Of a DNA stretch of 64,000 bases, positions 15,816 to 63,536 are shown one piece after another. The notes under the pieces were generated by a model. That model saw only the letters and a list, made by a program, of their open reading frames with translations, did not search any database and was not told the DNA's origin. The stretch is from Astropecten irregularis (Eukaryota; Echinodermata; Asteroidea; Paxillosida; Astropectinidae), in contig OZ020250.1 of assembly GCA_963971285.1 (NCBI GenBank), positions 7,610,499-7,674,498 on the forward strand. The letters are read 5' to 3'. A program made the position numbers and the translations under genes. Every line of letters begins with the position of its first letter. Within the stretch, counting starts at the first letter, position 1.

Positions 15816-16209
15816 GACTATTTTTTAAAGAAAAAAGATTTTAAAAAAAATCGTGGCCGTTGTTCACTATTTTCTAAAAAACGTGGGCACCGTATGAGAG
15901 AATATTCACAGATGACTGTTACTGTATCTTCGTATCTTCCTTGATATTTTTGCCTATGAATCTGCATTTCTTTGACAAAATCCTTACGTACTGGTTTTGA
16001 CCATTGTTCCCTGCACAGATCCTGAGCTAACGCGAGATCTCTTGTGTGGATGTGGCGGTAGAACCATACAATCTGAAATGACAGGAGTTCCTTATCCGGA
16101 CTTACGAAATAAATCATGACAACCCAAAGCAAATTTTAACTCGCACACTGTTTAAATATGAACAATGTTCTTCCAAACTGATTGCTTCTTATTATGGTTT
16201 GCTCTAAAG
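15816..16209. other. Upstream sequence or intron of lectin gene 1; no exon found
   Basis: The first recognisable exon of gene 1 starts in phase 1, so an upstream signal-peptide exon is expected. I could not find one here or further left in the window. Confidence 0.4.
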
Positions 16210-16399
16210 ACTGTCCAGACCTTCGTGCAGATGGCTTTGGAAGCGCGGCTAAACCGGGCATGTGCTATTTCGTGACGGACCTGGAGCTTACCTGGGAATC
16301 GGCCGTCGACTATTGCCAGGGGGAAGGTTGGTCTCTGGTCGACGTTGAGGACGCCGCGGAGAATGCAATACTGGCTGCCAGGCACAAAGATTTCAAACC
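16210..16399 (+). CDS. CTLD A, exon 1 (N-terminal half)
   Basis: The exon starts after ctctaaag in phase 1 and ends at CC before gtgaga in phase 2. It encodes DCPDLRADGFGS, then KPGMCYFV, WESAVDYCQGEGW and SLVDVEDAAEN, which is the first helix and strand region of a CTLD with cysteines 1 to 3 of the long form. At the DNA level it is very close to 54941-55130 (CTLD D). The acceptor has a weak pyrimidine tract and appears shifted by about a dozen bases relative to CTLD D. The 5' boundary is therefore the least certain part. Confidence 0.82.
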
Positions 16400-18522
16400 G
16401 TGAGAAAACAAAACTACGTGTCTAAAATACCATTTGAATCCAGATTTCAAAGACACTTAAACAAAACACGATTTTCGGTATGACTTAAAGAAATTCAATG
16501 GCTCGTTTAGTTAAAGTGAGCTCGAGATTTTGAGTGTATACATTCTGCTCACTTCACTTCCCCCTACAATCCCCCTACAGACCTCTGTATGACTGAGGAT
16601 CATGTGGTGTATTATGAAATAAAGAAATAAAGAAGTAATTCTTCTCAAAATCCATCCTCTTAGTCTGCCCTTCACTACTCCACATGCCCAAATTTTACCA
16701 CCCATTATCGGACTCCTGTTCCCCACCTGCTTGCACTCTGGACACTTGAAACTCTTCCCCTCATCCCTTCGCTTATCACTCACCAGACAATCTCTGAAAG
16801 TGTAGTAAGCACACAAACCATCGCTTAGTAACCAACTTTCCACACTATGGCCTCACAGTTCTAACGACTACTACTGGGTTGGCCAGAACGATCGAGAGGT
16901 TGAAGGAACTTGGAAGTATACATCCAACGACACGCCATCTGGTGCCGAGGTGTTCCTGAACTGGAGACTGGGCCAACCAGACGGCGGTACGTCGGAGAAC
17001 TGCATCGTGATGGATCAGGGAGGCGAGTGGAAGGACAGAAGCTGTACCGTAGCTTACTTTGTCACTTGCAAGAAGCGAATCGGTAAGATGACAAGCTATG
17101 TGTATGATTATGTGCCCTCCTTTTGCGTGTGTGAATATTGAGAGCCAGATTACAGGGTGAGTCAACAAGAACTTTACCATAGAATTGGTGATGCTTTCCA
17201 AAGAAACAACTAGCACTCAAAACTTCAGTAAAACATTTGTAAGCATGCATTCTCTTGTGTATAATAGGAAAATAAGTAAAAACTACAAGAATGAAGGGAT
17301 GAAACAAATTAAAATCTTTTTACAGCACCTATGACTTTTCTCATGAAGGTACATGTACTCATTTTGCAAGCTGTTCATGGAATACTCAAACTTGATTCCA
17401 TGTGTTGGTGTTACCGCATATCCATTATTTTGATGTGTCAGCTTCATTATCTTTTACGTTGTCATTTTCTATAGCATGTACATAAACGCAAAATATGTGG
17501 TTGTTGACCGAAATGATACCAATTTGTGGTAATTTGTTATATTGTTATATTGTCAAAACGCGTGAAGTATTACAATGTTCTCTTCGATTATTTTTCCCTT
17601 CTTTATTTCAGAGCTAAAAAGGACATGCTTTAACAGTAAGTCCGTACATATTTATCTTTAATTATGTTTTGAATAGAAGCAAAGCGTCCAAAACTTAAAT
17701 ATTTTCTTATGTTTAATGCTTAAGATTTTATCGTTTAATTGTGTTCAATATGTAAATTAAACCGCAATTGGTTGAAATGTCGCGAGAGTTTGGAAATAAA
17801 TAAAATGAAATGCAATAAAGTAGGCAAATCAAGAGAATGAAACAATGCGTAACTAGGGGAAAATGTCAACATAAGCATTACTAACACGAACAAAATTCAA
17901 ATGCATTGCTCTTTGATTGGTGTAATCTAGTCCTTTTAATGACTATAGCGGGCTAGTCGAAACGTTGAGACCTAACGAGAAGTGCGACAAAATAAGAAGT
18001 GCGAAAGAGAACGAGCGAATATTAGGCCGTGTCCAAATTCTCTGGCTGTGGTTGGAAATTGCGCATGTATCTAAGGCAGCCACTAGCCAGTGACTGCAGC
18101 TATTTCCATAGAATTGTGTGTTATTTGCGGTCGCAGCCAGAGAATTGGGACAAAGCCTTACATAGATCCACATACCAATTGTGACCATGCAAAATCTCCA
18201 ATTAGTGAGCTGATCTATTCCTAATATAAACGATATGTTAAACTTTCACTTTTTTACATCAGATATGCAAGGACCAAGACCTCGTAAATTCCTGTTCCTC
18301 TCTGTGGACGCCACCTGTCGCCCAGAATACTTACTAACTCCCAGCTACCGTGTCAAGACCAGAGTTCAGTGCGCACAGGACTGCTCTATGGAGGCTGGCT
18401 GCCGGAGCTTCGGCTTCTTGACCTCTGGGAATGAGGATAACTGCGTGCTCTGTAGCAAGGTTCTGCAGATTAAGGATCTAGTGATGAAAAACGACAGTAT
18501 GATTTACATTGAATCACTGTAA
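16210..18522 (+). CDS. Lectin gene 1: CTLD-PAN protein (5' end missing)
   Basis: Four exons are proposed: 16210-16399, 16859-17082, 17612-17635 and 18263-18522. The product is one six-cysteine C-type lectin-like domain (CTLD A), an eight-residue hinge, and a PAN/Apple-like cysteine-rich tail, probably secreted. Intron phases are 2, 1, 1 and agree with the paralogous domains in gene 2. CTLDs of this kind bind sugars or other ligands with calcium; PAN domains bind proteins or sugars. The CTLD keeps a QPD-type motif, associated with galactose preference, and a WKD in place of WND. The start exon is not visible. The nearest signal-peptide exon (24487) lies downstream and belongs to gene 2. Confidence 0.8.
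16859..17082 (+). CDS. CTLD A, exon 2 (sugar-binding half)
   Basis: Acceptor cctcacag at 16851-16858, donor gtaaga at 17083. The exon encodes SNDYYWVGQND (the WIGL region), EVFLNWRLGQPDGG, SENCIVMD, GGEWKDRSC and FVTCKKRI, supplying cysteines 4 to 6. The QPD at about 16976-16984 is the triplet linked to galactose-type binding in known CTLDs. WKD replaces the usual WND. The exon starts in phase 2 and ends in phase 1. It is nearly identical in layout to 55430-55650. Confidence 0.92.
17612..17635 (+). CDS. 24-base micro-exon, hinge of lectin gene 1
   Basis: Between the acceptor ttctttatttcag and the donor gtaagt lie 24 bases in phase 1-1 that join CTLD A to the PAN exon in frame as ELKRTCFN. 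It carries one cysteine, as the linker exons of gene 2 do. Both splice signals are strong. Without this exon the frame would still stay open, because the phases are symmetric. Transcript evidence would settle it. Confidence 0.6.
18025..18157. mobile_element. Short Harbinger-like MITE in the last intron of gene 1
   Basis: Inverted termini ggccgtgtccaaattctctg and complement of cagagaattgggacaaagcc, flanked by TTA at 18022-18024 and 18158-18160. The three-base TTA target duplication and GGCCGTGTCC ends match the larger element at 39247-39760. PIF/Harbinger elements typically duplicate TWA. Confidence 0.8.
18263..18522 (+). CDS. Terminal exon: PAN/Apple-like domain of lectin gene 1
   Basis: Acceptor ttttttacatcag, phase 1, stop TAA at 18520-18522. 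It encodes FLFLSVDATCRPEY, VQCAQDCSMEAGCRSFGF, NCVLCSKV and a short hydrophilic tail. The cysteine spacing (C, then C-x3-C-x5-C-x-SF, then C-x2-C) and the pattern of the central helix with CRSFGF fit the PAN/Apple fold, which in other proteins binds proteins or carbohydrates. At about 86 residues it is a complete single domain. It ends the protein, so gene 1 carries its PAN domain at the C terminus. Confidence 0.82.
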
Positions 18523-24486: not shown

Positions 24487-24580
24487 ATGATGAGGCTCAT
24501 GTGGGGTGCAGATGTGCGGTCATTCGGCTGGGTGGTTCTTGCCTTGTTTCTGATGGCAACACCAGGCAATACAGAGACGG
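24487..24580 (+). CDS. Lectin gene 2, exon 1: signal peptide
   Basis: Two adjacent ATGs (24487 and 24490) start MMRLMWGADVRSFGW, followed by the hydrophobic core VVLALFLMATPG and a polar NTET stretch. The exon ends at G before gtgagt (24581) in phase 1. A secretion signal with a phase-1 donor is the classic first exon of modular extracellular proteins and fits the phase-1 acceptors of all CTLD cassettes here. The frame is open upstream to 24262 but has no signal character there, so I choose the ATGs at 24487/24490. The assignment to the exons at 50 kb is inferred, since no intermediate exon was found. Confidence 0.7.
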
Positions 24581-48500: not shown

Positions 48501-51500
48501 GATGTGAACACCATTGACACCGCAAAACATTGTAACCATCGACGCCCCCTGTTCACTTGACTGTTACATGTCGTCTTCTCGTCCTCGTCCCGGAGGAGCG
48601 ACTCTATCCCGCCCTCCACGTTAAACAATAGGAAGATTTAGATTTTCACGTTGACTACGTTGACTGATACATGATTGCGTCATGCCGAGTCTTTGCGCAT
48701 GGGTCAAGTCATCACCAATGTTGTCTGAGTGAGTTGAGGATAGTTTGGACGTTCAGCACGACGTTCTCGCGTTTGTGGTCGACGCGAACGAGGTCCACGT
48801 TCACACCAATCTAAAGCTCCCTAGTACTGTGGTGACCGTGGTACATTTTGGAGTTACCTATAGTGTCCTTACAAATTGTTGTGGCCGTCATGAAACATTA
48901 CATTATGGGCGAATCTCAACCATTAACTGCATACTGTCATTGCGCTTTTCGAGACAGTTAGCGGCTGTTTAATAACTGTTTGTGTACATTTCACTTGATT
49001 TCTGATTATCGTAAACTAAACCGTCAAAGATTATTCAGAAAAAAATCATTTCACTATAAAAACACACAAAGAAAAATTTGGGATGAACGATGTATCGTTA
49101 TACGACATTATAATGCATTTGCAAACATCGCATGACAAAACTGCGCAGATATTTGTGAATTTGTGATATACGATCTATTAAACATCACAAATATTTGGGA
49201 AGATATTTCTGATGTTCGATGTTCCTCCTGCGCCACCTTTCTTTGCCGTCTTGCGCATGAAATACATAGTTATTTCCACACTGTGAATAATGTAATGCGC
49301 GCTCCTAGTGTCATGTGTCATGGCGACCACCGCGTCTCGCACTGGATACGAAAACACACTATATGTGCTCCTATAGGTGTAGGTGATCTCTAGTGGTAAA
49401 GCAATCATTGCTCCTATGCGACCTCAGACACTTATTGGTGGCGGTTTTTACCGATGCGACCCGGAGTCGTCCTTGACAGTCTACCAATATTATAATTATC
49501 GGATGACCTATACAGTTCGGGCACCTGTGGAGTACAGCAAGGATTATCAAAGAGTATCAAGGAGTACAACCAAAGATCGAACTGTGTTTGAGCTTTGTGG
49601 AAGGTGGAAAACCAGGTTAACTGGAGAAAAAAAAACATCTTTAGCGTAGTAGAGAATCAACGCACAGCAGGCTCGACTGGCATGTGACCCGAGCCGGGAT
49701 CGAACCAAGCCAGGCCACTCATTGGGTTGGGAGTTCAGTGCCTAAATGCACTTGCCACCTATTATTCCCGAATAACCACGGTAGCACCCTGCTACCACCC
49801 TCTAAATTGTTATTGCGCTGCAATATTTCCGACAAGACAACGATACAATGTTTACAAGGAAGCTCTGGATGGAAGATGAAGTTAGACGATGACGTAGTTG
49901 GTCGACATTTAAATTAAAATTTTTGACAAGTTTGCAACCTTGCGGCCTCTTGGCTTGGCCACTTTCCCGCGTGGTATTATACTACACAAGAATATACAAT
50001 CTATTAAGCTATTAAATCAACACAGGCCTTGACGAAAGGCTATAGCCAACACGACTACCCCGCGCAGTCCTTTTCGAGTTGTACTACTAGTACTGCTGTC
50101 AGCTCATTCTTCCTCCTAATTGTCTTCCCTTAATAGCATTACCGCCAAACAATGATTACCACGCCGTGTCTTGCAGTGATATCCACGACCAAGCATTCGG
50201 TAACCAGACCCTCAAACCCGGAGTTTGCTACTTGGCGATTGACAAGTGGGGAGTATTCCTTAATGCTAGGACCTTCTGTCAGGGACTCGGAGACAACATA
50301 GGATGGGATGTTGCTGACATAGAAGATGCGGTGGAGCTCCAGCTCATCCAAGACGCAATAAAAGAATTAAAGGAGAATGAAGAATTGTAAGTTTAAAGGC
50401 ACATTTTTCATGTCAATAAGGTTATTGTAATGTAAAATGCAAAACCAAAGTATTAATACATTACCTATGCTGGGACTACCTGGAGTCCAACTGAATTGTC
50501 TGTTGTCCTACACATTGTTTAAAAAAAAACCCAGAATGTCCTTATCTCACATCTTATGTCAGCACTGTATCCATGAAGACCACATCTATTACGTCCTTCA
50601 ACAACTCTACCAACTGAGCTATCCAGCCCTACGTTGGTTATTTGATGATTCAATTTTAAGTTATTAAAATGTGAACAAAGACAAATTGACAGGAGCGGGA
50701 TTCGAAACCGCAACCTCCTGAAAACCAGTGAACACTGGTGACCAGTCAGTCAGTTTCCCTTGTGCTTATTTGAGGATTATTTTAATTAAAGCTGTATCCT
50801 CTTTGAGTCACCCCCCATGCATGTACTGTTCTCAAGTTGTAGCATTGCTGCGTGTATCGATGAACATGATCCCTGGGATATAGCAGACTAAGTACGTGGT
50901 GTCATGGCTTCTGACTGCCAAACGAAAAAAAAAATAATTAACTATCAGGAGAACCACCAAAGAAGGGCTGGATGGCTCAGTTGGTAGAGCGCCTGCACGG
51001 TGTTCAGGAGGTTGCTGGTTCGTATCCCGCTCCAGTCAAATCTTCTTTGTTCACATTTTAATGATTAACATTATTATAAGCACAGAGATTGTTGTTTGCT
51101 TCTGCAGGGAGGCGTCTTATTTCTGGATTGGCCAGAATGACATGAAGATCGAAAATGTTTTGAGATATGTGAACGATAGCTCCAACAAGTGTAACCGCAC
51201 AGTGTATCTCAACTGGATATCAGGCCAGCCTAACGGAGGCCGCAGAGAAAACTGCGTAATTTACAACTACGATGGTGGGGTTTTTCTTGATGGATGCTGT
51301 GATAGCAACTACAACTACTTATGCAAAGTGAAAATCACATCTGGTATGTCTAGCAATAAAGTTCAATATTTTATTGGATTGTTAATATCTAGCATTACGA
51401 CACGATTACCTTTTGTATTGACTTGTATCATGAAATATCTGGTTTTGTAACAGAAACAGTACCTTCATGTCCTGGTTTCCCTCCTACTCCTACGGATGTT

Positions 51501-54500
51501 TATGATGGTAAGCATTAAAAATCACGATTCCGTTCAATATTTTGCATATCACTTGTTCACCATTTGTCTGATGGAGAGACAATGAAAATGTTCTGGAGGC
51601 TGTAATGCATTTCATTTATGTGGTTATTTCAGTTTGTTTTAATATGTATATTACATTTAATATTTTTTTAAATATAAATTTTTAGTAATAAACTACTGCA
51701 TACAATCAGCCAAATTAACCACGTGAAATGTATAGAATACTTGGAATAATGAGATCCTGACGCGTTTCTATCCTAGCAGGATCGTTAGATGTATAGATGC
51801 TGTTGCTAGGATCGAAATGCGTCAGTCCCTCCTAATTCCAAGCATTTTGTTTAATTGGTTAATTATTGTATTCGGATCTTTGCTCATCTCGCCCTACATT
51901 GTAAATCAGCCTAGTCGCTCTATTTTCTTACAACTATAAGCCGATTGCATCTTACATGCTTAGTAATACTGGATTGCCGAACCTGGTTGAACAAGGAATT
52001 CATAATAAAAACTATTTTCTTAAGGATTTGTTTATTTAACGTTTTTATAGTGTAATCCGTTGTTTCCTTACCAGATTGCCGTGACATCTTGCCGTCCGCC
52101 TTCAGTAATCCCTTGGTGCCTGGGGTTTGTTACGCCAGCGCCATCAACCAGAGGCTTTCCTTCCAGGCGGCTGTGGATTTTTGCCGGTCTATTCCCGGTG
52201 GTTCCTGGTCGGTGGTTGACATCGAGGACGCCGAGGAGAATCTGTTCCTCGAAGTATGGAACAGAGACAACTTTCCGTAAGTTCTGGCTTTCGAAACATA
52301 ACTTAAGTAAAATGATTAGAAAAAAAATTGCACTACACATAAAGTATCTTATATTTCAGAAAAAAACACCAACATATTCTATGGGAGGTTACTGATCTAA
52401 CCCCGCCCCTCCGATTTTTCCAATGAACATTGTATCCAAACTTTGCACTAAGCCTTATATTAACGATTTTTGATAATAATAATTATTAATTTATAACGCG
52501 CACACATCTTTTCAAAAAGACACTCGTGGTGCACAAAACAAAGAACGAAAACAAAATAACAATTTCAAAAACATTTACAAAGGGCATAGCCTTAAATGCA
52601 GCTACAAACAATGACACATGAATAATTAAATTAAATAATTGTTTCAAGTTACAAAGCGCGGGCTACAACGTAATCAGATTGATTAAACCTAAACAACGAA
52701 AACAATATGATGGACTACTGAACCAGGTACTAAGATACTAAAATGCATCATCAACTAAGAGAATGATTTATTGATAAGGTGAGTTTATAGGTTAGATTTA
52801 AAAGAGGATAAGGAACCGGTATGTTGTTGAAGATTATATGGGATGCTGTTCCATAGGCGTGGAGCAGCTATACAGAGAAAGCTCTATCGCCCCATGATCT
52901 TTTTGTCCAAAGAACAGTTAACTTGGGTGCAGATGATGGTCGTAAGCCGGTTCTCCCAGGGGTATGCTAAAATCATTGATGTAGTCAGGGGCCAATCCAG
53001 TGAGTGATTTATAAGTAAGGAGATATATTTTGAATTCAATTATTTGTGCAACTGGTAGCCAGTGGAGTTTTTTTAGAGCCGGGGTGATGTGTTCAGACCT
53101 ACAGGTGTTTGTAATGATGTGAGCAGCTGCTGTATTGTTTCTTTTTTCGAAGATAATTAATTTGGCATTGGGGTAACCCTAAGAGGGAAGCATTATAAAT
53201 CTAATGATTTAATCATTTGAAGAGAGACCGGGATGGCTACTGACTTAAACATCATTGATATACAGATCTTAATTCGTCAGAAAAAAAATCCCATGTAATC
53301 GCTTAAGTTTTCTTCTTCTTTTTTCCTCAATGTACACGCAGTAAAAACAATGATTACTGGATAGGTCAAAATGATCGGGAGCTAGAAGGCGATTACCGGT
53401 ATACCTCCAGCGGGTAGTGTCCGGTGTATCTCAACTGGGCCAGTGGTGAACCGAACGGGGCAGGGTATTCGAACTGTCTATTCATGGGGAAAAGAAGCAA
53501 CGGACGCTTTCATGGTGCACCTTGCCACGGACACTTCTTTACTCTGTGCAAACTAAGAACCGGTGGGTTTAAGCATAGAGCTAGGAAGTTCTTCCTTTAT
53601 AACTGTTTTAACAATTATATATCCAATTTTGCCCGACGTAGGCCTACTGGTCAATCTTAACAACGCATCTCCTGACCTAAGTGTTTACCCGATTTTTACA
53701 ACACTGTACGTTAATAAGCATTTTTTTCATGTAAGATTTGAGGCTTTGCATGGTGACAATTGGTATGTGGATCGGTTTTCTGAAACACAATGGAAGAATC
53801 GTTCGTACTCGCGATTCATTTTGGTCGTGTTCACACAGGTAAAAAAAAAAGCGCGACCCGAATAGATTTTTGTGATCAAACCGCTCATGCGCGATTCTCG
53901 AAGTTTGACCTGAAGTTGACCTGCATCCGGCACTACGCTTTGCGACGAACTGAATCGCTGAGTTTATTATCATTGGTCTATATTAATAATGTAACAAGGA
54001 GGTCGGTTGTTTGGACCACGCTCCTGCCAATTTTTTTCTGTTCATCTTTCAATGACTTATGAATTATATGAAGTTCCCTTGTGTTTTTTTTTTGTAAGAC
54101 TTGAAGCTATGCATGGTGGAATTACTAAAAGAAGATAAATTTGCGGTGACACCATGTAATCTCTTCTGTGAGAGTGTGTGGTTCTGAGAAGAACCGTTGG
54201 TATTATTTCGACGTTCCGAACAGTGTGCTCTGTTCGTCCTCAGGAGAGTGACTGGTTATTTTATGATTATATATGGTAGTTAAACGCAAAATGCTGGGAC
54301 AATAAATTCATATAGCACGCGCCTTGCATGGTGGGATTAAAAAAAATGGGGGGGGGGTTGCACCGTTCAAATAGCAAATGATTGCGAGTATTTGCAAACA
54401 GATCCATTATATTAGTACGATAATTTGTGTCCACACACGAAAAAAAAAACCGACAAAAAAACAACGGTTTTTGAATCGCGATTAAAATCGCGACGCACAA

Positions 54501-57500
54501 AATCGCTGTTATTCGGGTGTGGGTGAACGGGCCTATTTGGTTTCAATGGAAATTACCAAAATTACATGCCGCTAGTTTACACAATACTTTATAGAAAAAA
54601 ATTACAAGTGGTTACCGATGACTTTTGGCATATTACATCTACACTTGAACCCATATGAAACAATAATTTTCATTCCATAATTTCATGGATCAATAATTAT
54701 GCTTGATAAGGTGACCGAAGCTGCCTTCATATATTTGGTTTCAGATCCAGAGCCAACCCGAGATCCCATGACGAGGTGTGATGGCAGTACTCTACCACCT
54801 GAAGTCACAGGTAACTTCTTCAAATATACAAAGGAAGTAAATCAAAACTTGAAGATGGTAGATATCTCATCGCACATAGCGCCCATTGATTTTAGATATC
54901 AATGTTATTTTCCCCTTTTTTTTCTGGCTTTGTCTTTCAGCTTGCTCTAACCTCCGTAAGGATGCCTTTGGTAACGTGGCTAAACCGGGCATATGCTACT
55001 TCCTATCGGACCAGAAGCTTCCCTGGGAATCGGCCGTCGAGTATTGCCAGGGGGAAGGTTGGTCTCTGGTCGACGTTGAGGACGCCACGGAGAATACAAT
55101 AGTGACTGCCAGACACAGGGATTTCACATCGTAAGGCAGATTGTTGTCTGTAGTCATATCACATCGCAAAACAATCCAGATATATTAATTACCAGATTAT
55201 GCCTACAATACACGAATTGGTACTGGTTGTCGGACTGGTACTACAAGCCTCTTGCTAATAAACAGTAATTGTTTGTTTTGTACCAATCCTGTAGAGACGA
55301 TATGAAACTATGGTCCTCATGATAGCCTTTTTTTTTTAATCCCGTCCTAGAGATTAGCGTACACAATTACATGTCTTCAAGCTGGTAATCTTACAAGGTT
55401 AGCAAATACATAATGCCTTACATCCACAGCTCGAGCTACTACTGGGTTAGTCAGAACGATCGGGAGGTTGAAGGAACATGGAAGTATGCATCCAACGACA
55501 CGCCGTCTGATGCCGAGGTGTTCCTGAACTGGAGAGTAGGCCAACCAAACGGCCGCATTTGGGAGAACTGCATCGGGGTGGACTTGACAGGCAAATGGTC
55601 GGATTTAAGATGCAACACGGCCTATTTCTTCATCTGCAAGAAACGCATAGGTCAGGTTTATCTCGAAAAGTTTATTTTGTGATTTTATTTTACGTAAAAG
55701 CATTTAATTAAGGTAATTAGTCGAGGTGAACTTTGTTCAAATTTGGATTGTCACATATAATGTTGCCTTATTCTTTTCGAATTTTAGATGAATAATATAT
55801 CTCATTAATATATATTAATCCTGGATTGTTGGATACAAGTACCAATTCCAAAAATAAGATATGAAAATAAAAAAATAAACGACGTTGACGAAGAAAGAGA
55901 CGACATTCAATCGAAGAATCCACAAAAATCCACTTGTTCTCGTGAATGAAGGCTTTGAAAATAATCTTGATCATTACTGGAAATTATAATTATCATTTGA
56001 ATAGGCCTATACGTTTCATTGTTTACACAATAAACGGTGATTTGCGGTGAAATGTGGTGATAGTGTGGGCAACAATAGTCTATGTTATTTGATACACGCA
56101 CTCGTAGTTATTCAACTATGAATAAGTACTCAACTTTACACCGCTAGAACAAGTGACTCGACAGTAACATTCCATGGACCGTTGTGCAGCATCGTTATGT
56201 ATAACAACTCAAAGCAAGGCTTCCTTCAAGGAAAAAAGACAACTTCAAATTTCGCGGGCCGGCAGCTATACGAATGTACGTGTGTCGACGCGTGTGGTAA
56301 CACTTTTTGTTTAACCCCAAATTACCCAGTGTCCTTTGCGCGCGCGCGCGCGCAGTGCCGAAAACAGGCTATCTTCGATAAGGTCCATACCATTGATCTC
56401 CATTATACACTGGATAGGACACGCGTATTCCTTTTGTACAGCGCTTCCTGTAAAAACGCGCAGTCCCGTTTAGGAGGGTTGCGCATGCGCTGATGAATGC
56501 CATCATGATAGTTCACAGTAGTTATTTATAGATAAAATAAGGCTAACTTAATACAATATCGTTGAGTTGACGAGTTTTGTTTGCTCCAAATTAAAAAAAT
56601 GTATCGCCAAACTGCCAAATAAGTTACCGGCAAACTACAACTTACTGCGATCGTTCAAAAAAAGGCAAATGAAATAAGGATTATAGAATTCTTTTCAAAT
56701 AAAGTTATAATTATTCCCACACACTTAAACTTATTGTTCTGCAGACTAAAACGCTTACTTATGGAATCAAATCCCTCTTTTTGTGTCATCCGTGCACCCG
56801 GCATTCGTAGGCCTACATCCATAAACGCATAACACATCCTATAATCCATAGTAAGGTATTTCCTCCAAAAGTTTAATTCTAAACCACTCGAAAATCAGCA
56901 AAATATATGGCAAATTTATTGCCCCAACCCCCAAACTTCATTTGTTTGTGTTGCGTACGGTCTCTGCGCCGACCCGCGCTTGAAGTTTCTAAACCCTCCT
57001 GAGCAAACGCACGCGTTATACAAGATGGCGCGCGATGTCCTATCCAGTGTATTATGGAGATCAATGGTCCATACCATTGATCTCCATAATACACTGGATA
57101 GGACACGCGTATTCTTTTTGTTCAGCGCTTCCTGTAAAAACGCGCGGCATCGTTTAGGAGGGTTTCGCATGCGCTGATGAATGCCAACATGATAGTTAAC
57201 GGTAATAATAACATAGATAAAACAAGGCTAACTTCCGCTGATTTGATTAGTTTTGTTGCTCCAAATAAAACAAATTTATCGCCACCCTGCCAAGTTACCG
57301 GCAAACTACAGCTAACTGCGATCATTCAAAAAAAGGCAAATGAAATAAGGATTTTAGAATTATTTTCAAATAAATGTATAATTATTCCCACACACTTAAA
57401 CTTATTGTTATGCAGACTAAAACGCTTACTTATGGAACAAAATCCCTCTTTTTCTGTCATCCGTGCACCCGGCATCCGTAGGCCTGCATCCACAAACGCA

Positions 57501-60500
57501 TAACACATCCTATAATCCATAGTAAGGTATTTCCTCCGAAGTTTTAATTCTAAACCACTCGGAAAACAGCAAAATATATTGCAAATGTATTGCCCCAATC
57601 CCCAAACTTCATTTGTTTGTGTTGCGTACGGTCTATGCGCCGACCTGCGTTTGAAGTTTCAAAACCCTCCTGAGCAAACGCGCGCGTTGCTGAAGATGGC
57701 ACGGGATGTCCTATCCAGTGTATAGACCTTTCTTTTGCAACGTCACAGACCGAGTTGTTGCCAACCAGCATGGCGGAAAGTATGGCGAGCCATCAAAGCC
57801 AGGCATAAACAATTACCACATATTTTACGCAATTTGTACACAACGTTTCATAAACTGCTGAATGTTGCTGAATGTAATGGAAACAGTTTTCAAAAATGTT
57901 GAATGTGGTCACACCGTCTTTCGAGAAGACGAAATTATTTGCAACATTTGGCCGCCCATGCCAACCAGCAACCAATGTTTATAAACAAAAGAAAGGTCTA
58001 TTATGGAGATCAATGGTCCATATTGGATAGGACACCGCACGTTGCTTGTGTACAAAATGCGCGGCAGAACAATGGCGGCGCGCTACCCTCCTCGTCAACC
58101 TATTCTCGTCGTGAATTAGTTTATGTATTAAGGTGCCGAAAACATTTAAATTTTTCCTTTTTTCACACATCCTCTTCGGCAAACCATTTAGTTACTCTGG
58201 TGTTTTAAAATAGCCCAGTAGGAGGAGGCAACCGTCAACTGATATTATTGATGCGCTTACAATAATTTTTGTTTTTAGACATTTCATTTCTTAAATTAAT
58301 TATGATTTGATTCTATTCAATTCCGAGTTATAGAAATTAATCAGCCCATCGAACCTACTTTTGAATCCGCTATATCTACATTCTGGTTCTCTTTATCCTA
58401 ACATTGATGACCAACTTTTAATGAAAAAACACTGTCTCAGAGAAACATATTTGCATTCATACAATTACGCTGGTACATTTATTGCAAACTGAGAAAAACA
58501 AAGCAAATTGTTTGAAGACAAAAAGAAGGTAAAACACGTCAACAAGAACGTCTAGGAAAAACAGGAATAAATGACGTGAAGGAACGAAATTTATGACTGA
58601 AACCTGTAAAACGTTGTACTGTGGTGGAAAGTTTTGTTATGGGAGTCAACTTTGGATTAATGATGATAGAATGGAGCTATGGGCCTATAAGTAAGTAGCA
58701 CGTATATTGTACATGTACTTAGGGCCTGAGTAACTGTTGATGAAACCGGATATGCCGTTCTTTCTTCCACTATTTTTAATGTGGTGGGTTTTCGTCAGTA
58801 GAATTAAGTAGGCCTATTCATATTCTTATAAGGAGGTAAAAAAGTTTGATAGAACAAAACTGGTCTTTATTCTTATTGATATTGTTTTGCAATTGATTAG
58901 TCATCTTCAATTCTTTCATTTGTGATTTCATTCAGTGGGAATAACGTAAGTTGGTTCTGCTCCTCGCTTCAATTTCCCTATTTTCCTCCGTCGTGGAAAG
59001 ACTCTGGCTCAAGATGATTGGAGCACACAATTAGTTGTACTTCGATCGTTGTCCGTAGCTTTTTAGTTTAGGGTTGACGCGTCGGACAAGCCCGAGTCAT
59101 TTTCTTTCGTAGAGACTTTTCTTCGAGAAACCTGGAGAAAAAAAACACGGGAGGAAGACCCAGTCAGTATCATTATTTAGAGAGATGACCACTACGCACA
59201 GGAACAAGTTTGAACAACACATAAGACACTACAAAAACATAAGACACTACGTAAGACGTCATAAATTAATTTTAAAAAAAAGTAGCACTGTAGCAGTACA
59301 CAGAATGCAGTACGATAAAGCCAACAACTTACCTCTGAAAAGTTATTCCTTTCTCACGTCTCAGTTTTTCATCCCTCTCCGGGCAATTTATGGATGCGCA
59401 CACCTTGACCATTATTGTTTAAGAAATTACCAAATTCATTCACATCATGACATTTTTTGGCAAAAGCAGACCATTTGAAGAAGAAAATGATCTCCATTTC
59501 TTTGAAACGTCCATTCAAATGTGTGCGCACAGAAAAACCAAACGTTCGTTTCCTACCCGTCTTACAAAACGCACACGCAGACGCTCATTGGAGGCAGTGT
59601 CCTATCCAGTATTATATGGAGATCAATGGTCCATACCGTTTGGCGAGCGCCGCGCGTCTATCACGCAGTGGCGTCACCAGACTTTTGAGTCCGGGGGGGG
59701 GGCACAAGGGGGGCACTAGCAGTTGTTGGGGGGGCACTACAATATATATTATATTTTTTTTCACCAACCCAAATCTCAAATGGGGGTGCACAAGGGGGGG
59801 CACGAGGTTTTCCAGGGGGGGGCACGTGCCCCCCCCCCCCCCCTTGGCGACGCCACTGCTATCACGTAGATAGCTGCTGGCGCGCGGACGCGCGAAATTG
59901 ACCAATCAGCATCCTCCGTCACGATTCTGACGGAAATGTTCTCAAAAGAGATCTGATTGGCTGATGTGCCTCGTTGCATACAATTTGCATGCAGGCATGT
60001 ATCAGACGTTCGTACGTAGTGGCACGGAATAGAATGGGTGATACTCAGACTAGGCAACACTCGGGGAACACACAAATTCCACACTCTCTGGAGATCCTAT
60101 CACTTTAATTAAAACAAGAAGAAATCAAATTAGAAAAGTACAAATAAGAGGGAAAGTCACTTCCGTTCGGTTTTGTAAGGAATGACGTGTTTTCATTCAA
60201 ATTTAGTTTAGCAACTCAACATCTTTGTATTTTTAGAAAACTGTGTTTCTAGAAGTGACCGTTGACAATTTTCTGCCCCTCAAAAAATCGTACATTTTTC
60301 TTCATAAATTTGGAGGTCAAATTTTTGAAATCTAGTTTTCGGTTAATCGAATATAAAATGTTCGATCATCATGAACGTGTAAACGTTGAGGCGTTAATTT
60401 TGATCCATCAATTTCATTTGGAAACTTACTCAAGAATAGTACGAAACTTTTATCATAACAATATTTTGAATGACTTGCTCTTGACACGTGAAATGTGTCA

Positions 60501-63500
60501 AGAGCAAGAAAAAACGTACATAATTTTCATTTAACAAATTAATATCAATAATTTGTTGTCAAAATTAATTGGCGTATTCATTCTCAAGTCTGTATTTGTA
60601 TTTACCGGATTTATCCATGACCAGCTGCGCCCTCCATCGAGCCCCCTACGGGACCCTGTACCAGCATCTACGGTGAAACATTCAGTGACGAGACCCTCAA
60701 ACCCGGAGTCTGCTACCTGGCGACCAATAATCGGAATGGAGTATTCCTTGATGCTAGGACCTTCTGTCAGGGACTCGGAGACAACATAGGATGGGATGTC
60801 GCTGACATAGAAGATGCGGTGGAGAACCAGCTCATCCAAGATGCAATAACTGCACTGAGAAATGACGGCTTATTGTAAGTTGTGAACAAAAATGAGTTAG
60901 ATATTAATACAAAAATACGACATGGGATTAATTAATATAAGTCTTTAGTAGTGATTCGAAACAGTGAATATCGCACGAGCACTCTCCTCTGAGCTATCCA
61001 GCCCTGTGCTGTCGGTGTACCTAATGGTCAATTATCTTTGTTCGTGTGCCAGTCAGAATCCATGAAACCACTCGCATTCCGCACATTTCAATGATCATTG
61101 AAGATATGAGCAACATTACCAATGTTGCAACCTCAGATAAGGTCAATGGGAGATCCCTCTAAGAGGATGCTGCTTCTTAATCAATATAGTTAACAATGAA
61201 AAAGAGTGAACAAAGAAAATAAAACTTATTTCAGAGGTCGCTTATTCCGGAGTTCCGTTCCAATCATGTTTTTGTTTGTTCACTATTCATTTACTTACAA
61301 TTATCAGTTTCCCTTGTGGTTATTTGATAACAATGGTCAAACAGGAACTTGCTCCTCATTTAAAAGTGGTAAGAGCTATATGATCCTGATTCTTTCACCA
61401 AAGGTCACTTTTAGGCAAAGCCTTTCTTTGTGACGCATTGCTTGACCTCTGTGACCTCTGCTTCCGGTCAAAAAGGAAGTAGCTTGTCATTCAAAAGTTG
61501 TGATATTTCCAATCATGATTCTTTCGCAGGAAGTAAAATTTAGGCAATGTTTTTCTTTGTGACACAAACATGACCAAGTCTCTTGACTTAAGATTAAAGG
61601 TGAACTCTTCAAAAGTGTCTTTGTCTGTATAAAGTTATGATGATTTATTTGTTGTATATTATAATACAGAAAAGCCCTGTGTTCTGTTTTCAACAGACAC
61701 AACCTCTAGTTTTTGTTTTTCCAATGTTATCTTCCCAAACTTGTCAGCAGGACTTCTCGATGACAGTTACAATTACAGTTACATGACCTACAATTCTGAT
61801 ATTTACATAATGTTACTCAACGTGTAAATCTCAACAATGAATATAGTGTTGTGCAAAAATTACGTTCACTTCCGATGTTACTGGAAAATGAAGTTTGACT
61901 CAAAATCACTTAAAAAATATATATTGACAATGACATCGTACGGGCTGTACAGCGCCCTCTACGGTTGATTAAAGATATACAGTGATTACGTGCTCCCAAA
62001 GTGTACAATGGATTTCCACTAAATGTGGTTAGTGTGCAGCACCAGGGTATCTCCACATGTCTGTGAAGTTTCACAGCGGTGACGTCATTCAACCGGAAGT
62101 TATGCTCATTTGAAGATAAAATGACTTAATTTTTCAAGTACCATTTACTCGGTAATTGCATGACGTACATGAATGAAAATTGCAAAATATTTACATCCTA
62201 CGCAAATGACCTCTGTCATTTTTCAGTTGTTTGTGATGAACTAACTGGAAGTTATCGTCATCGCAATATTGCATATATTTAAATGAGACACATTTTGTAC
62301 AACACGTGTCCCACTGCAAAAATCACATTACATCTATTCCACACTATTAGTCAGTGCACGCATACAACAATCAGCGACTGCCATTGTCATTGTATAAGGG
62401 ACGATTTATCACGTGTGTAACATTTCCATTACGAAATGAGACCCAAACACCAAGTGGTTGTTCCCACAACCGCATGTCTAGTTTTAAATTGTGGACGTTA
62501 TTCGATTTCCAAGAATTCTTTATGAATAAAATGCTTTAGATTATTCGAATATACATTGAAGCTTCGTTCGAAAAACCTGCAAAACGAAGCACAGCGATAA
62601 TTGCGTCAACCAAAACGCTCTCCACATCGCAATTTGCATGAAATATATGAACCTGGCTTAATACGCCTTTAATGCAAAATCATGCATTAAATCCTGCGTT
62701 TATTGATATTTTAAACACTGTTTTTACAGGAGTGCTACAGGATTCTGGATCGGCCAGAATGACATGAAGACCGAGAATGTTTGGAGATATGCGAACGATA
62801 GCTCCAACAAGTGTAACAGCACAACGTATCTCAACTGGGTGTCGGGCCACACTAACGGGGGCCGTAGAGAAAACTGCGTAATATACAACTATAGGGTCGG
62901 CGGGGATTTCCTTGATGCATTCTGTGATAGCACCTATAACTACTTATGTAAAATTAAAATCACATCTGGTGAGTAACTTGGAGAAGTGGAACATGTTTGG
63001 CAGAAACGTTTCCAGTGGCAATTATTATTATTATTATTTTGTATGAATTTCATTTTGTTTACGTTTAATAAATTAACCTAACTTAATAATTTAAATATTT
63101 CTTGGGGAGTGTCAATCAGACAGGTTCCAAGACATTTCCGATAATAAGGACGTCATTCTAAATCATTTCTGGTGCCCACATTTTCCCTTGTCATCTTTGC
63201 GAAATAAAAAACCCTGACATAATATAATTTATTATTGTGATTCCAACTCAATTTATCGCTTCCCAACCTTGGCAATAATTACATTATACTCTAAGCGACC
63301 GAATTCCATAATGAAGTGGAAAATTAATAACTGCGAAGATATTTAGCACGTCATTCTCCCATTATTTGGGACTATTGATAGTATTGATAATCGTTGAATC
63401 TGTTAGTACTATAGATGTATAATTAGGGCCATGGAATATCACTTACCTATAAGTAGGCCTACTTAGTGATGTGCACATCTTTGTTTTGCAGAAGCAGCAG

Positions 63501-63536
63501 TATCATCTTGTCCCATAACCAAGGAGACACCTGATA
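24487..63536 (+). CDS. Lectin gene 2: signal peptide plus four CTLDs (3' end beyond window)
   Basis: Proposed exons: 24487-24580, 50137-50386, 51108-51343, 51454-51507, 52075-52276, 53342-53562, 54745-54810, 54941-55130, 55430-55650, 60625-60874, 62730-62968 and 63492-63536. Order: signal, CTLD B, linker, CTLD C, linker, CTLD D, CTLD E, linker, then more to the right. Every junction keeps frame (1-2-1 within each CTLD cassette, 1-1 for linkers). The TAG in C exon 2 would end the protein unless that cassette is skipped. The product is likely a secreted, multivalent lectin. Parts could belong to separate neighbouring genes, because the first intron is about 25.5 kb and no linker was found between D and E. 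Confidence 0.6.
24587..25249. other. Start of the large intron, nothing recognised
   Basis: AT-rich intronic sequence. No exon or repeat is supported. Confidence 0.45.
28137..28405. mobile_element. hAT-like element fragment, same family as 7769-8339
   Basis: Begins agtctggttttctgcccaaa and follows 7771-8035 closely to the caaaagtgcataatagg block, then stops. The right half and terminus are gone. Confidence 0.75.
28570..28928. mobile_element. TTAA-type MITE
   Basis: Parallels 35503-35875: tgattggtaaaggtcacaga, aaagaatggttttgctc, aacatttctgtttgggtatg. It ends ttgtacct before TTAA at 28929-28932. The left TTAA is blurred. An A-run near 28650 interrupts the similarity. Confidence 0.7.
29382..29613. 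mobile_element. Near-perfect palindromic MITE with TAA target duplication
   Basis: Termini agcccaccgcacactatacg and its complement. The arms match for about 85 bases on each side around a central spacer with cgactggccatcagagtg. The flanks are TAA at 29379-29381 and 29614-29616. The sister unit B at 33919-33935 reads cagtaatttaagtcacc without the insert, which proves the exact 232-base insertion and the three-base duplication. A PIF/Harbinger-like target. Confidence 0.9.
29884..30621 (+). mobile_element. Helitron-like non-autonomous element with five 128-base internal repeats
   Basis: The sequence is absent from the matching place in unit C (about 40535-40550). It starts tctaaatggctttttcgcgc and ends with a hairpin (gctgtttacaacagc) ten bases before CTAG at 30618-30621, followed by TTT. 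Internal direct repeats begin near 29985, 30110, 30238, 30366 and 30496. Each carries ttgacctctgtgacctc and acttccggtcaaacaggaag. A 3' hairpin, CTAG end and core tandem repeats are the layout of Helentron-related elements such as the bivalve Pearl and insect DINE-1 families. Confidence 0.75.
33294..33577 (-). mobile_element. Truncated copy of the gcgta-rich Harbinger-like MITE
   Basis: Starts after TTA with agcccctttcacatcgggcc and follows the reverse complement of 34954-35431 through repeated gcgta blocks to about 33577. It stops before the far terminus and abuts ccgataccagaaaatcgac. Confidence 0.75.
34371..34806. mobile_element. hAT-like non-autonomous element, second full-length copy
   Basis: Ends gtctggttccctgcccaac and the complement of ggtctgggaaccagacta, as in 7769-8339, with gacagtcaacgtaactatcc and gaagttggacggaaa shared. 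The sister site in unit C (about 40348-40372, ccatggacgcatgcaggg) is empty. The flanks ggacgcgt and ggacgtgc suggest an 8-base target duplication that has since drifted. Confidence 0.8.
34954..35431. mobile_element. gcgta-rich Harbinger-like MITE, complete
   Basis: Ends agcctctttcacacctggcg and the complement of gggtgtgaaaggggct, flanked by TAA (34951-34953, 35432-35434). The empty sister site in unit D reads ttccgcttaactctcac (41230-41246). The interior is a string of tacgcta/gcgta-type short repeats in opposite orientations in the two halves, so the whole element can fold. Confidence 0.88.
35503..35875. mobile_element. TTAA-flanked piggyBac-like MITE, complete
   Basis: TTAA at 35499-35502 and 35876-35879. 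Element ends aggtata and tacct. The sister units read cttaagatctcc (30779) and cttattaaagatctcc (41307) with no insert, which fixes the 373-base size and the four-base duplication. This is the reference copy for the pieces at 3277, 9621, 11601 and 28570. Confidence 0.88.
38956..39117. mobile_element. hAT-like G-rich MITE, right end missing
   Basis: Starts cagtggcgtcaccagacttt and parallels 59666-59820, with three long G runs and aacccaaatctcaaatgg (plus variants). The matching cgccactg end is absent. Confidence 0.75.
39247..39760. mobile_element. Harbinger-like MITE, 514 bases, TTA target duplication
   Basis: Inverted ends ggccgtgtccgaaacgactg and the complement of caatttcggacacggcc, flanked by TTA (39244-39246 and 39761-39763). 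The sister units read aagcttggtctgg (29157) and aagcttggtctag (33693) at this place, so the insertion is exact. The interior has tctagagctaggtctacgg-type blocks in inverted pairs. Same family as 18025-18157. Confidence 0.88.
41437..43928 (+). mobile_element. Composite Helitron-like insertion
   Basis: Interrupts the fourth tandem unit. Opens with two copies of ggtgttcgggttcaagccga, each a near-perfect palindrome, then tggctttttcgtgcacgcga, a 5' hairpin like those at 29889 and 43931. Related phrases occur twice inside: aaactgccgattttaaccaa near 41638 and aacagccgattttaacttgg near 43511. The 3' part has one core repeat (acttccggtcaa-like near 43748) and ends gctgttttcaacagc plus CTAG at 43925-43928. 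A long hairpin at 42980-43022 (cgtgggttttct and complement) lies inside. No helicase gene is recognised. Confidence 0.55.
43929..44463 (+). mobile_element. Helitron-like non-autonomous element, head-to-tail with the previous one
   Basis: Begins tggcttttccgtgttcaacg directly after the CTAG of the upstream element. It has a (TTC)n microsatellite at about 43977-44004, then core repeats starting near 44079, 44208 and 44338 (about 129-base period), and ends with hairpin gctgttttcaacagc and CTAG at 44460-44463. The order 5' hairpin, microsatellite, core repeats, 3' hairpin is that of Pearl/DINE-1-type Helentron relatives. Confidence 0.75.
44464..45899. other. Intronic, nothing recognised
   Basis: AT-rich to mixed sequence. 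No exon with CTLD, PAN or linker character and no repeat copy found. Confidence 0.45.
45900..48660 (-). mobile_element. Broken Ty3/Gypsy element, minus strand
   Basis: An old copy with many breaks. On the minus strand, parts recognised are a reverse-transcriptase region around 46800-47000 (PFG-type palm segment preceded by a VYWQVHLD-like stretch) and an integrase zinc-binding region around 46430-46540. Boundaries and LTRs are not resolved and the limits given are approximate. It sits in the large intron of gene 2 and is itself interrupted by a small hAT-like element. Family: Metaviridae. It is not functional. Confidence 0.65.
48080..48264. mobile_element. hAT-like MITE with caggggcggatccagg ends
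   Basis: Left caggggcggatccagg and right cctggacccgctcctg are inverted copies. Direct flanks ggtca occur at 48075-48079 and 48265-48269. This type of end (CAGGGGCGGATCC) is common in non-autonomous hAT elements of animals. It is inserted in the minus-strand Gypsy fossil and is therefore younger. Confidence 0.75.
48661..50136. other. End of the large intron; one tRNA-like head
   Basis: At 49684-49745 the minus strand reads ggttcgatcccggctcgggt with upstream A-box-like sequence, probably a SINE head related to 11135. Nothing else is recognised. The last 30 bases (cttcctcctaattgtcttcc and ttaatag) form the acceptor of the next exon. Confidence 0.45.
50137..50386 (+). CDS. CTLD B, exon 1
   Basis: Phase-1 acceptor after cttcccttaatag, donor gtaagt at 50387 in phase 2. 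The exon opens with ALPPNNDYHAVSC, then SDIHDQAFGN, LKPGVCYLAID, FLNARTFCQGLGDN and GWDVADIEDAVE. A nearer AG at 50173-50174 would drop the first cysteine and shift the phase, so the upstream site with its long pyrimidine tract is preferred. Compared with CTLD A and D the exon has about eleven extra N-terminal residues, which act as a built-in linker. E exon 1 is its closest relative. Confidence 0.85.
50590..50735 (-). repeat. tRNA-derived SINE, split head
   Basis: Minus strand: gggctggatagctcagttgg (A-box part, near 50602-50628) and ggtttcgaatcccgctcctg (B-box part, near 50692-50711), separated by a longer gap than in the other copies because of inserted sequence. Lies in the intron between CTLD B exons. 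Confidence 0.65.
50966..51055 (+). repeat. tRNA-derived SINE head
   Basis: gggctggatggctcagttgg, then tagagcgcctgcac, then ggttcgtatcccgctcc, followed by ttctttgttcacatttt. Same family as 4270-4445 in the opposite orientation. The B-box has one change from GGTTCGAATCC. Together with 50590-50735 it forms an inverted pair inside one intron. Confidence 0.7.
51108..51343 (+). CDS. CTLD B, exon 2
   Basis: Acceptor gtttgcttctgcag, donor gtatgt at 51344. Encodes EASYFWIGQNDMK, VNDSSNKCNRTVYLNW, ISGQPNGGRRENC, then FLDGCCDSNYNYLCKVKITSG. The sugar-site triplet is QPN, and the usual WND is replaced by FLD, so calcium-dependent binding is uncertain. Extra cysteines (NKC and CC) beyond the six canonical ones suggest an additional disulphide or pairing with another chain. 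A potential N-glycosylation site, NRT, follows the NKC. Confidence 0.92.
51454..51507 (+). CDS. Linker exon B-C, 18 residues
   Basis: Acceptor ggttttgtaacag, donor gtaagc, phase 1-1. Encodes ETVPSCPGFPPTPTDVYD, a proline/threonine-rich hinge with one cysteine. It keeps frame between CTLD B and CTLD C. Similar in style to 54745-54810 and 63492-63536. Confidence 0.7.
51757..51825. repeat. Long hairpin with flank matching the Penelope-like tail
   Basis: ctgacgcgtttctatcctag and ttgctaggatcgaaatgcgt plus cag are inverted copies (about 23 bases with few mismatches) around a 23-base loop. The sequence following the right arm (cctcctaattccaagcattt) matches that near the Penelope-like remnant at about 21380. 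It is probably a detached end of that retroelement family. Confidence 0.6.
52075..52276 (+). CDS. CTLD C, exon 1
   Basis: Acceptor gtttccttaccag, donor gtaagt, phases 1 to 2. Encodes DCRDILPSAFSN, VPGVCYASAI, FQAAVDFCRSIPGG and SWSVVDIEDAEEN. All three expected cysteines are present. The most diverged of the five CTLDs. Confidence 0.88.
52465..53165 (-). mobile_element. LINE 3' end (CR1/L2-like), minus strand
   Basis: On the minus strand 53150-52990 encodes RNNTAAAHIITNTCRSEHIT, then PALKKLHWLPVAQIIEFKIY and LLTYKSLTGLAPDYINDF, the C-terminal region of CR1/L2-type reverse transcriptases. After decayed sequence it reaches a 3' tail gcgcgttataaattaataat followed by attattatc, the short repeat tail of this group. 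It is heavily 5'-truncated and old, and it lies in the intron between the two CTLD C exons. Confidence 0.8.
53342..53562 (+). CDS. CTLD C, exon 2, with an in-frame TAG
   Basis: Acceptor caatgtacacgcag, donor gtgggt at 53563, phases 2 to 1. Encodes KNNDYWIGQNDRELEGDYRY, then TSSG, a TAG stop at 53415-53417, then CPVYLNWASGEPNGAG, SNCLFMG, HGAPCHGHFFTLCKLRT. Both sides of the stop are well-conserved CTLD in the same frame. EPN is the triplet linked to mannose-type binding, found only here among the five domains. The WND position is not conserved. Either this domain is dead, or the cassette is skipped, or the base is a polymorphism or error. Confidence 0.85.
53716..54540. repeat. Short duplicated segment and MITE pieces in intron
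   Basis: 53721-53755 (catgtaagatttgaggcttt, gcatggtg) recurs at 54091-54119 (gtaagacttgaagctatgca). 53820-53990 and 54360-54540 carry pieces of the 4823-5269-type MITE (gttcacacaggt, tcgcgattaaaatcgcgac, gtgaacgggcct). Near 54206 tttcgacgttccgaacagtg resembles 26158-26180, possibly Penelope-type tails. Confidence 0.5.
54745..54810 (+). CDS. Linker exon C-D, 22 residues
   Basis: Acceptor tatttggtttcag, donor gtaact, phase 1-1. Encodes DPEPTRDPMTRC followed by DGSTLPPEVT: hydrophilic, proline-rich, one cysteine. Keeps frame from CTLD C (or B, if C is skipped) into CTLD D. Confidence 0.65.
54941..55130 (+). CDS. CTLD D, exon 1
   Basis: Acceptor tttgtctttcag with a long pyrimidine tract, donor gtaagg, phases 1 to 2. 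Encodes ACSNLRKDAFGN, AKPGICYFLSD, WESAVEYCQGEGW and SLVDVEDATEN. Closest relative is 16210-16399 (CTLD A), with long identical DNA stretches such as ggtctctggtcgacgttgag, so the duplication is recent. Confidence 0.92.
55430..55650 (+). CDS. CTLD D, exon 2
   Basis: Acceptor ttacatccacag, donor gtcagg (weak). Encodes SSYYWVSQNDREVEGTWKYA, EVFLNWRVGQPNGR, ENCIGVDLTGKWSDLRC, FFICKKRI. Near copy of CTLD A exon 2, but the sugar triplet is QPN here and QPD there, and WSD replaces WKD. One base (A versus G) changes Asp to Asn at the binding site. Six-cysteine pattern complete. Confidence 0.92.
55651..56385. other. Intron, nothing recognised except a (CG)n run
   Basis: 56338-56353 is an alternating CG run of 16 bases, a potential Z-DNA former. 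No linker exon was found between CTLD D and E. Confidence 0.45.
56386..58030. mobile_element. Two tandem copies of an inverted-repeat element, the second with a nested insert
   Basis: Copy 1 (about 56386-57070) and copy 2 (about 57070-58030) share ends ccattgatctccat followed by atacactggataggac, and their complements, plus long internal identity (cgcttcctgtaaaaacgcgc, gggttgcgcatgcgctgatg, cacacacttaaacttattgt). The inner ends abut at 57048-57095 as a perfect hairpin. Copy 2 is interrupted at 57722-57998 by an element with tagacctttcttttg ends. A fragment of the same end occurs at 59603-59635. No transposase. Confidence 0.8.
57722..57998. mobile_element. Nested TIR element with tagacctttctttt ends
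   Basis: Left end tagacctttcttttgcaacg, right end the complement (aaaagaaaggtcta at 57985-57998). The host sequence gtgta/ttatggagatc continues on both sides, as in the intact junction at 57048-57062, so the insert is exact. Confidence 0.8.
58031..59592. other. Intron, nothing recognised
   Basis: Unique-looking sequence. A 33-codon cysteine-bearing frame at 58593-58694 ends near a good donor (gtaagt at 58691) but lacks a believable acceptor. Confidence 0.4.
59666..59858. mobile_element. hAT-like MITE, complete, 8-base target duplication
   Basis: Ends cagtggcgtcaccagac and ttggcgacgccactg are inverted. Flanking direct repeats ctatcacg at 59658-59665 and 59859-59866 are perfect. G- and C-runs fill the interior. 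Eight-base duplication and CAGTGGCG ends place it in the hAT superfamily. Perfect duplications suggest a recent insertion. A truncated relative is at 38956. Confidence 0.9.
59867..60624. other. Intron before CTLD E, nothing recognised
   Basis: Contains a short inverted repeat ttgctcttgacacg/tgtcaagagcaag near 60477-60509. No exon seen. Confidence 0.45.
60625..60874 (+). CDS. CTLD E, exon 1
   Basis: Acceptor ggatttatccatgaccag, donor gtaagt at 60875, phases 1 to 2. Encodes APSIEPPTGPCTSIYGETF, then LKPGVCYLATN, FLDARTFCQGLGDN, GWDVADIEDAVENQL. Strongly similar to B exon 1, including the built-in N-terminal linker, but the linker sequence itself differs and is proline-rich. Three cysteines in place. 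Confidence 0.87.
60985..61045 (-). repeat. tRNA-derived SINE remnant
   Basis: Minus strand gggctggatagctcagagga with the tail ctaatggtcaattatctttg (plus strand), matching the distal part of 4270-4445. Sits in the B/E-type intron at a place comparable to 50590, so it may predate the B/E duplication. Confidence 0.55.
61336..61709 (+). mobile_element. Helitron-like element, 5'-truncated, with two core repeats
   Basis: Starts inside a core repeat (ggtcaaacaggaac), has repeat starts near 61389 and 61518, and ends with ctgttttcaacag and CTAG at 61706-61709. Same family as 29884-30621 and 43929-44463. Confidence 0.65.
61710..62729. other. Intron; possible second Helitron-like end at 62478
   Basis: ggttgttcccacaacc forms a hairpin about eight bases before CTAG at 62478-62481 followed by TTTT, the same terminal layout as the Helitron-like copies but with a different sequence. 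The 5' limit is unknown. The last 20 bases give the acceptor of CTLD E exon 2. Confidence 0.4.
62730..62968 (+). CDS. CTLD E, exon 2
   Basis: Acceptor actgtttttacag, donor gtgagt at 62969, phases 2 to 1. Encodes SATGFWIGQNDMK, ANDSSNKCNSTTYLNW, VSGHTNGGRRENC, FLDAFCDSTYNYLCKIKITSG. Close copy of B exon 2, but the sugar triplet is HTN, which is not a known EPN/QPD-type motif, so canonical sugar binding is probably lost or altered. The NST after NKC keeps a potential N-glycosylation site. Confidence 0.92.
63018..63040. repeat. (ATT)n microsatellite
   Basis: attattattattattatttt in the intron after CTLD E. It could be the tail of a lost LINE copy, but no body is recognisable. Confidence 0.7.
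63492..63536 (+). CDS. Linker exon after CTLD E, 15 residues
   Basis: Acceptor ctttgttttgcag, donor gtaagt, phase 1-1. Encodes EAAVSSCPITKETPD, again with a single cysteine and a CP step like the B-C linker (SCPGF). It implies that another domain follows to the right of the window. Confidence 0.72.

Follow-up and report, generated by a model that had tools for sequence, protein, structure and literature searches.

Symmetrical phase 1-2-1 exon pairs predicted at a multi-CTLD lectin-like locus of Astropecten irregularis

The 64,000-nucleotide stretch of Astropecten irregularis DNA analysed here (contig OZ020250.1, positions 7,610,499 to 7,674,498; hereafter the window) contains five CTLDs, and the locus may extend past the window. 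Four of the CTLDs (A, B, C and D, spanning 50137-62968) lie together with three linker exons (L1, L2 and L3) in an 11-exon stretch at 50137-63536, which is referred to as gene 2, although D may be part of a different gene; the fifth, C', belongs to gene 1 at 16-18.5 kb, and the exons of both are on the + strand. Each of these four CTLDs is split over two exons, with predicted phases 1-2-1, the first exon carrying the first half of the domain from phase 1 to phase 2 and the second exon the second half from phase 2 to phase 1. Cassette A consists of A1 (50137..50386) and A2 (51108..51343) and is followed by L1 (51454..51507). Next come cassette B, with B1 (52075..52276) and B2 (53342..53562), L2 (54745..54810), and cassette C, with C1 (54941..55130) and C2 (55430..55650). 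Cassette D, which is of the A type, is formed by D1 (60625..60874) and D2 (62730..62968) and is followed by L3 (63492..63536). The linkers are phase 1-1 exons with one cysteine each. The lengths of the cassettes (486, 423, 411 and 489 nt for A, B, C and D) and of the linkers (54, 66 and 45 nt for L1, L2 and L3) are all multiples of three.

All 11 of these exons have a GT donor, and all 11 have an AG acceptor. In the located exons, and in translations of the joined modules, the outer boundaries are all of phase 1 and the inner boundaries all of phase 2; at the left ends of A and D the phase is read from the splice-site consensus alone. The proposal of the sequence-only reading that the CTLDs of gene 2 are phase 1-2-1 pairs joined by 1-1 linkers was borne out, in that all boundaries fit, those at the left edges of A and D by consensus. 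Phase-1 flanks, as in symmetrical class 1-1 modules, are predicted for the four cassettes, the three linkers, C' and the micro-exon of gene 1. The symmetric phase 1-1 anatomy of the modules is a well supported prediction. Other features within the introns of this stretch are a tRNA-Thr (GGT) or tRNA-derived repeat at 50966-51038 (+) in cassette A, a match to the Rfam histone 3' UTR stem-loop (RF00032, E 3e-7) at 54156-54200 (-) between B2 and L2, and, in the cassette D intron at 61378-61566 (+), a stretch related (79%) to the 129-bp tandem repeats that form arrays on the + strand at 29982-30545 and 44079-44337.

The splice sites differ in strength. By the scoring matrix applied, four of the 14 scored GT donors are below 2 bits (C'1, B1, C1 and C2). 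The C2 donor, GTCAGG, reaches 1.6 bits, which by itself says little because C'1, B1 and C1 have even weaker donors; read-through past it meets a stop after ten codons, and an AATAAA lies at 55866. Of 16 acceptors scored, that of D1 is the lowest, at the 79th percentile of 3206 AGs. At the other end of the gene, a sequence scan for signal-peptide exons of the window gave two candidates on the + strand and none on the - strand, against a mean of 0.65 per window in 20 block shuffles. The better candidate, at 24487..24580 (+), has a phase-1 end, a GTGAGT donor and a good predicted signal peptide, and gene 2 may start with this exon; A1 is 25.5 kb away, so that such a start would imply a 25-kb intron. 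Several imperfect direct repeats, 68-89% identical and mostly 5-7 kb apart (one 10.5 kb), are found at 25298-41443 (+).

In front of gene 1's cassette C' lies a linker-like exon, L2' (16019..16084), which has GA in place of the donor GT. Gene 1 itself comprises the two halves of C' (C'1, 16210..16399, phase 1 to 2; C'2, 16859..17082, phase 2 to 1), a 24-nt micro-exon of phase 1-1 with one cysteine (17612..17635) and, 0.6 kb behind the micro-exon, a PAN-domain exon (18263..18522) that starts in phase 1 and ends with a stop codon. The PAN exon, which is absent from the sequence-only reading, matches PF00024 with E 1.3e-6 and 28.5 bits against a cut-off of 21.4; the Pfam input comprised ten chosen ORFs besides the cassettes. 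With C', micro-exon and PAN as a single query, 124 candidates gave no score of E 0.1 or better, and this domain order was therefore not seen elsewhere among them. The claim that each linker carries exactly one cysteine applies to four of the five (L1, L2, L3 and the micro-exon) and fails for L2', which has two. The window also holds a fragment of a GIY-YIG domain at 20752-21045 (+; PF01541, E 6e-5), possibly from a Penelope-like element, and an open reverse transcriptase ORF of 709 residues at 3-2129 (+; PF00078, E 4.1e-36), with no preceding stop, at the window start.

The identity of the cassettes is clear from Pfam, where all five including C' pass the Lectin_C (PF00059) cut-off of 22.6 bits with scores of 38.2-67.0 bits, cassette B having been submitted with an X at the position of its in-frame stop, which is discussed below. 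When the six-frame stop-to-stop ORFs of at least 18 residues in the window were scanned with half-cassette models, only A, B, C, D and C' reached E < 1. A possible CTLD relic at 49178-49249 was rejected (E 0.61; E 20 with the half model; no Lectin_C in Pfam). The alignment of the five cassettes has six invariant cysteine columns in register, the pattern of the long form of the CTLD. The total numbers of cysteines are 8 in A, 7 in B, 6 in C, 7 in D and 6 in C'. In addition to the shared six, A, B and D each contain a cysteine in the loop that precedes the YLNW motif, and there is yet another in A. Our guess is that this loop cysteine of A, B and D could pair with the linker cysteine. Calcium and sugar sites of CTLDs are marked by the motifs EPN or QPD and WND. 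By eye, C' has QPD and WKD, C has QPN and WSD, A has QPN and D has HTN, while in cassette B the alignment has EPN, with the later acidic residues absent. From these motifs, the predicted sugar site would be closest to intact in C', with its QPD, and in C, and would be eroded in A, B and D. Binding of extracellular ligands would be the most likely role.

The exon boundaries fall at common places in the domain. In B, C and C' the left boundary is one residue before the first cysteine; in A it lies 11 residues earlier and in D 10. The inner boundary is in all five a few residues before the WIG motif, and the right boundary lies behind the last cysteine. These common places indicate descent from one cassette, and the many phase-1 boundaries are therefore not independent of each other: they are not due to chance, and they represent few events.

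Two pairs of cassettes are close relatives, A and D with 73% identity and C and C' with 69-70%. The remaining pairs among A, B, C and D share 31-38%, C' shares 35-41% with A, B and D, and dS is saturated at these distances; as their sequences show, types A, B and C are deeply diverged. In the whole-cassette tree A and D are grouped with a support of 0.998. The dS values for A/D (0.51, 0.33-0.79) and C/C' (0.46, 0.27-0.69) are similar, and the two duplications are thus possibly of one age. With dN/dS of 0.36 (0.21-0.56) for A/D and 0.37 (0.21-0.66) for C/C', both pairs have on average been under purifying selection. The linkers add to this history. L2 and L2', which lie beside C and C', respectively, are 71% alike in DNA, and L3 follows D as L1 follows A, with an L1/L3 match only at E 4. 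The joint copying of L2 with C and the placing of L3 and D like L1 and A favour block copying, with D as candidate first cassette of a further copy. A single block event is not proven by this, since alignment of the A and D introns yields a single 24-nt match, L1 and L3 match at E 4 and the dS intervals are wide.

Cassette B of gene 2 contains an in-frame TAG stop codon in B2 (53415..53417, +), on which the sequence-only reading is silent. The frame of B is open on both sides of the TAG and its splice sites are present, but in the assembled sequence the TAG prevents translation of the complete cassette. Use of another acceptor, at the stop, was considered on visual inspection only and rejected because the reading frame would shift. 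We infer that the stop is a null mutation of recent origin, an allele that is still segregating, or an error of the assembly. That an assembly or sequencing error is hiding an intact B is a possibility we would put somewhat below even: the TAG is the sole interruption of a 423-nt cassette that is open elsewhere and has its splice sites, and the first half of the B type is conserved in the protein fragment P0004, whereas the window shows no sign of error at the TAG. Rather less probable is that the whole locus is decaying and the A-B-C gene is turning into a pseudogene. Besides the TAG, the GTCAGG of the C2 donor, the GA at the adjacent L2' donor and a terminal exon of A-B-C that was not found by similarity could be signs of such decay, but save for the one stop the frames are all open, the 11 splice-site pairs at 50137-63536 are all GT-AG, and a dN/dS of about 0.36 for A/D and C/C', though averaged over the copies' whole history, points to constraint. 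Both an error at the TAG and a decaying locus are compatible with the interpretation preferred below. If the stop is real, a transcript containing B2 would be truncated, while joint skipping of B1 and B2 would keep the frame.

How freely exons could be skipped at this locus is set by their phases. The ten CTLD exons all have lengths that are not divisible by three, and the exons whose individual loss keeps the frame are L1, L2, L3 and the micro-exon alone. The idea that any cassette or linker can be skipped in frame thus applies to the linkers and to whole pairs and breaks down for CTLD exons taken singly. Among the eight exons from A1 to C2, nine of the 21 contiguous internal skips keep the frame, and six of these nine remove B2. 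As the inner boundary is of phase 2 at the same place in every cassette, joining B1 to C2 (B2, L2 and C1 skipped) or A1 to C2 (A2 to C1 skipped) gives a complete chimeric CTLD that is in frame and stop-free, and an A1-B2 joint is likewise in frame and retains the TAG. It would nevertheless be very surprising if half-cassettes were interchangeable in the sense that splicing yields hybrid lectin domains, with the B2 stop favouring them. That the locus may give many isoforms is a hypothesis which the sequence analysis neither supports nor excludes. The further suggestion of a gene built for domain shuffling gains no support from the findings. The types are deeply diverged and L2-C and L2'-C' were copied together, which is better explained by block copying than by free shuffling of single cassettes.

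Another reading of the locus is a single gene that starts with a signal exon near 24.5 kb, includes all of A, B, C and D, and produces many isoforms by variable splicing of its cassettes and linkers. Its start could be the signal-exon candidate at 24487-24580, and between C and D there are no signal-exon candidates at a donor score of at least 3 bits and no PAN-like terminal exons. In addition, skips of whole cassettes and linkers stay in frame, and those six frame-keeping skips would drop the B2 stop. Behind C, moreover, a copy of the PAN exon or micro-exon was not found, the best PAN match having E 1.3. This match, at 56284-56358 and 0.6 kb behind C2 (46% identity over 26 residues), was considered as a PAN relic and is taken as chance; the ORF around it has no match to a Pfam family up to E 0.1. 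Because neither a PAN or micro-exon copy behind C nor a signal-exon candidate between C and D was detected, a single gene from C into D is possible. Against such a gene are the acceptor of D1, the weakest of those scored, and the weak C2 donor, the need to skip two exons together for each CTLD removed, and the joint copying of linker and cassette in one of the two copy pairs. On balance we regard the one-gene model as unlikely.

We consider it probable that the locus is part of a family of extracellular multi-CTLD lectin-like genes that was copied in blocks and is made of textbook symmetrical modules. The basic module is the two-exon CTLD, with predicted phase-1 flanking introns and a phase-2 intron just before WIG; short 1-1 exons serve as spacers, and these linkers would be stalk-like. 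Duplication of a cassette block would have given C' (16 kb), A-B-C (50-56 kb) and D (from 60 kb onwards), with D as the opening cassette of either a further or a fused copy. The ligands of the products would be glycans or other extracellular molecules. 

Relatives of the cassettes were found as short proteins. A profile of the five cassettes detected nine of these among 693 candidates, of which eight are by best match of the A/D type (seven first halves and one second half) and one, P0004, is of the B type and 71% identical to B1; C-type fragments were not present among the nine. Of the eight first-half proteins, four (P0003, P0004, P0005 and P0007) end, as judged by eye on the protein alignment, where read-through of the window exon into its phase-2 GTAA would stop. 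P0006 and P0009 run two residues past this point, P0010 falls one residue short of it and P0008 four. These ends are evidence for the inner boundary that comes from outside the window. In the first-half tree B1 groups with P0004 (0.971) and C1 with C'1 (0.925), and the order within the A type is poorly supported in places (lowest 0.25). The joined A-B-C model had one weak match in 2426 candidates, P0001 (455 residues, 27% identity), in which three CTLD-like stretches can be seen by eye. Among solved structures, to which C and D were compared, the best matches were the PLA2 receptor for C (1.9e-18) and the mannose receptor for D (1.5e-11). Group VI receptors, such as the macrophage mannose receptor, the PLA2 receptor and DEC-205, likewise have several CTLDs in a row per protein. 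These receptors have cysteine-rich and FnII domains and 8-10 CTLDs, while the locus described here differs, as far as the window shows it, in having 3-4 CTLDs, separate linker exons and a PAN domain in gene 1. No title among the literature matches listed names this gene family, which carries little weight since most subscription journals were outside the coverage.

The cassettes can also be compared with other CTLD genes with regard to their introns. As in the fish antifreeze-like and EMBP CTLDs treated in PMC514892, the domain is split by introns at positions fixed within the family. The CTLD introns reported there lie upstream of C1, between C2 and C3 and downstream of WIGL, whereas the present cassettes have a single internal intron just upstream of WIG. 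From the symmetrical (class 1-1) modules known from exon shuffling in metazoans (Patthy), the present module differs in being an exon pair and not a single exon, and its copies fit block copying better than free shuffling. In PMC6335736 the author argues that symmetrical modules were the material from which most metazoan-specific multidomain proteins were put together, and frame-keeping exon skipping is presented as a reflection of such modules; a reviewer's view given there is that skipped exons mostly avoid domains. On this author's view a phase 1-1 layout is thus common (PMC6335736).

The locus is of an ordinary kind, and its anatomy is confirmed. Its interest is that of a clean example in which a two-exon domain has been kept as a 1-2-1 cassette across a long divergence, and it illustrates that symmetric phases by themselves need not mean free shuffling. 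Given a genuine stop in cassette B and expression of the gene, the locus would in addition provide a small natural test of whether a gene made of symmetric modules can tolerate a broken domain.
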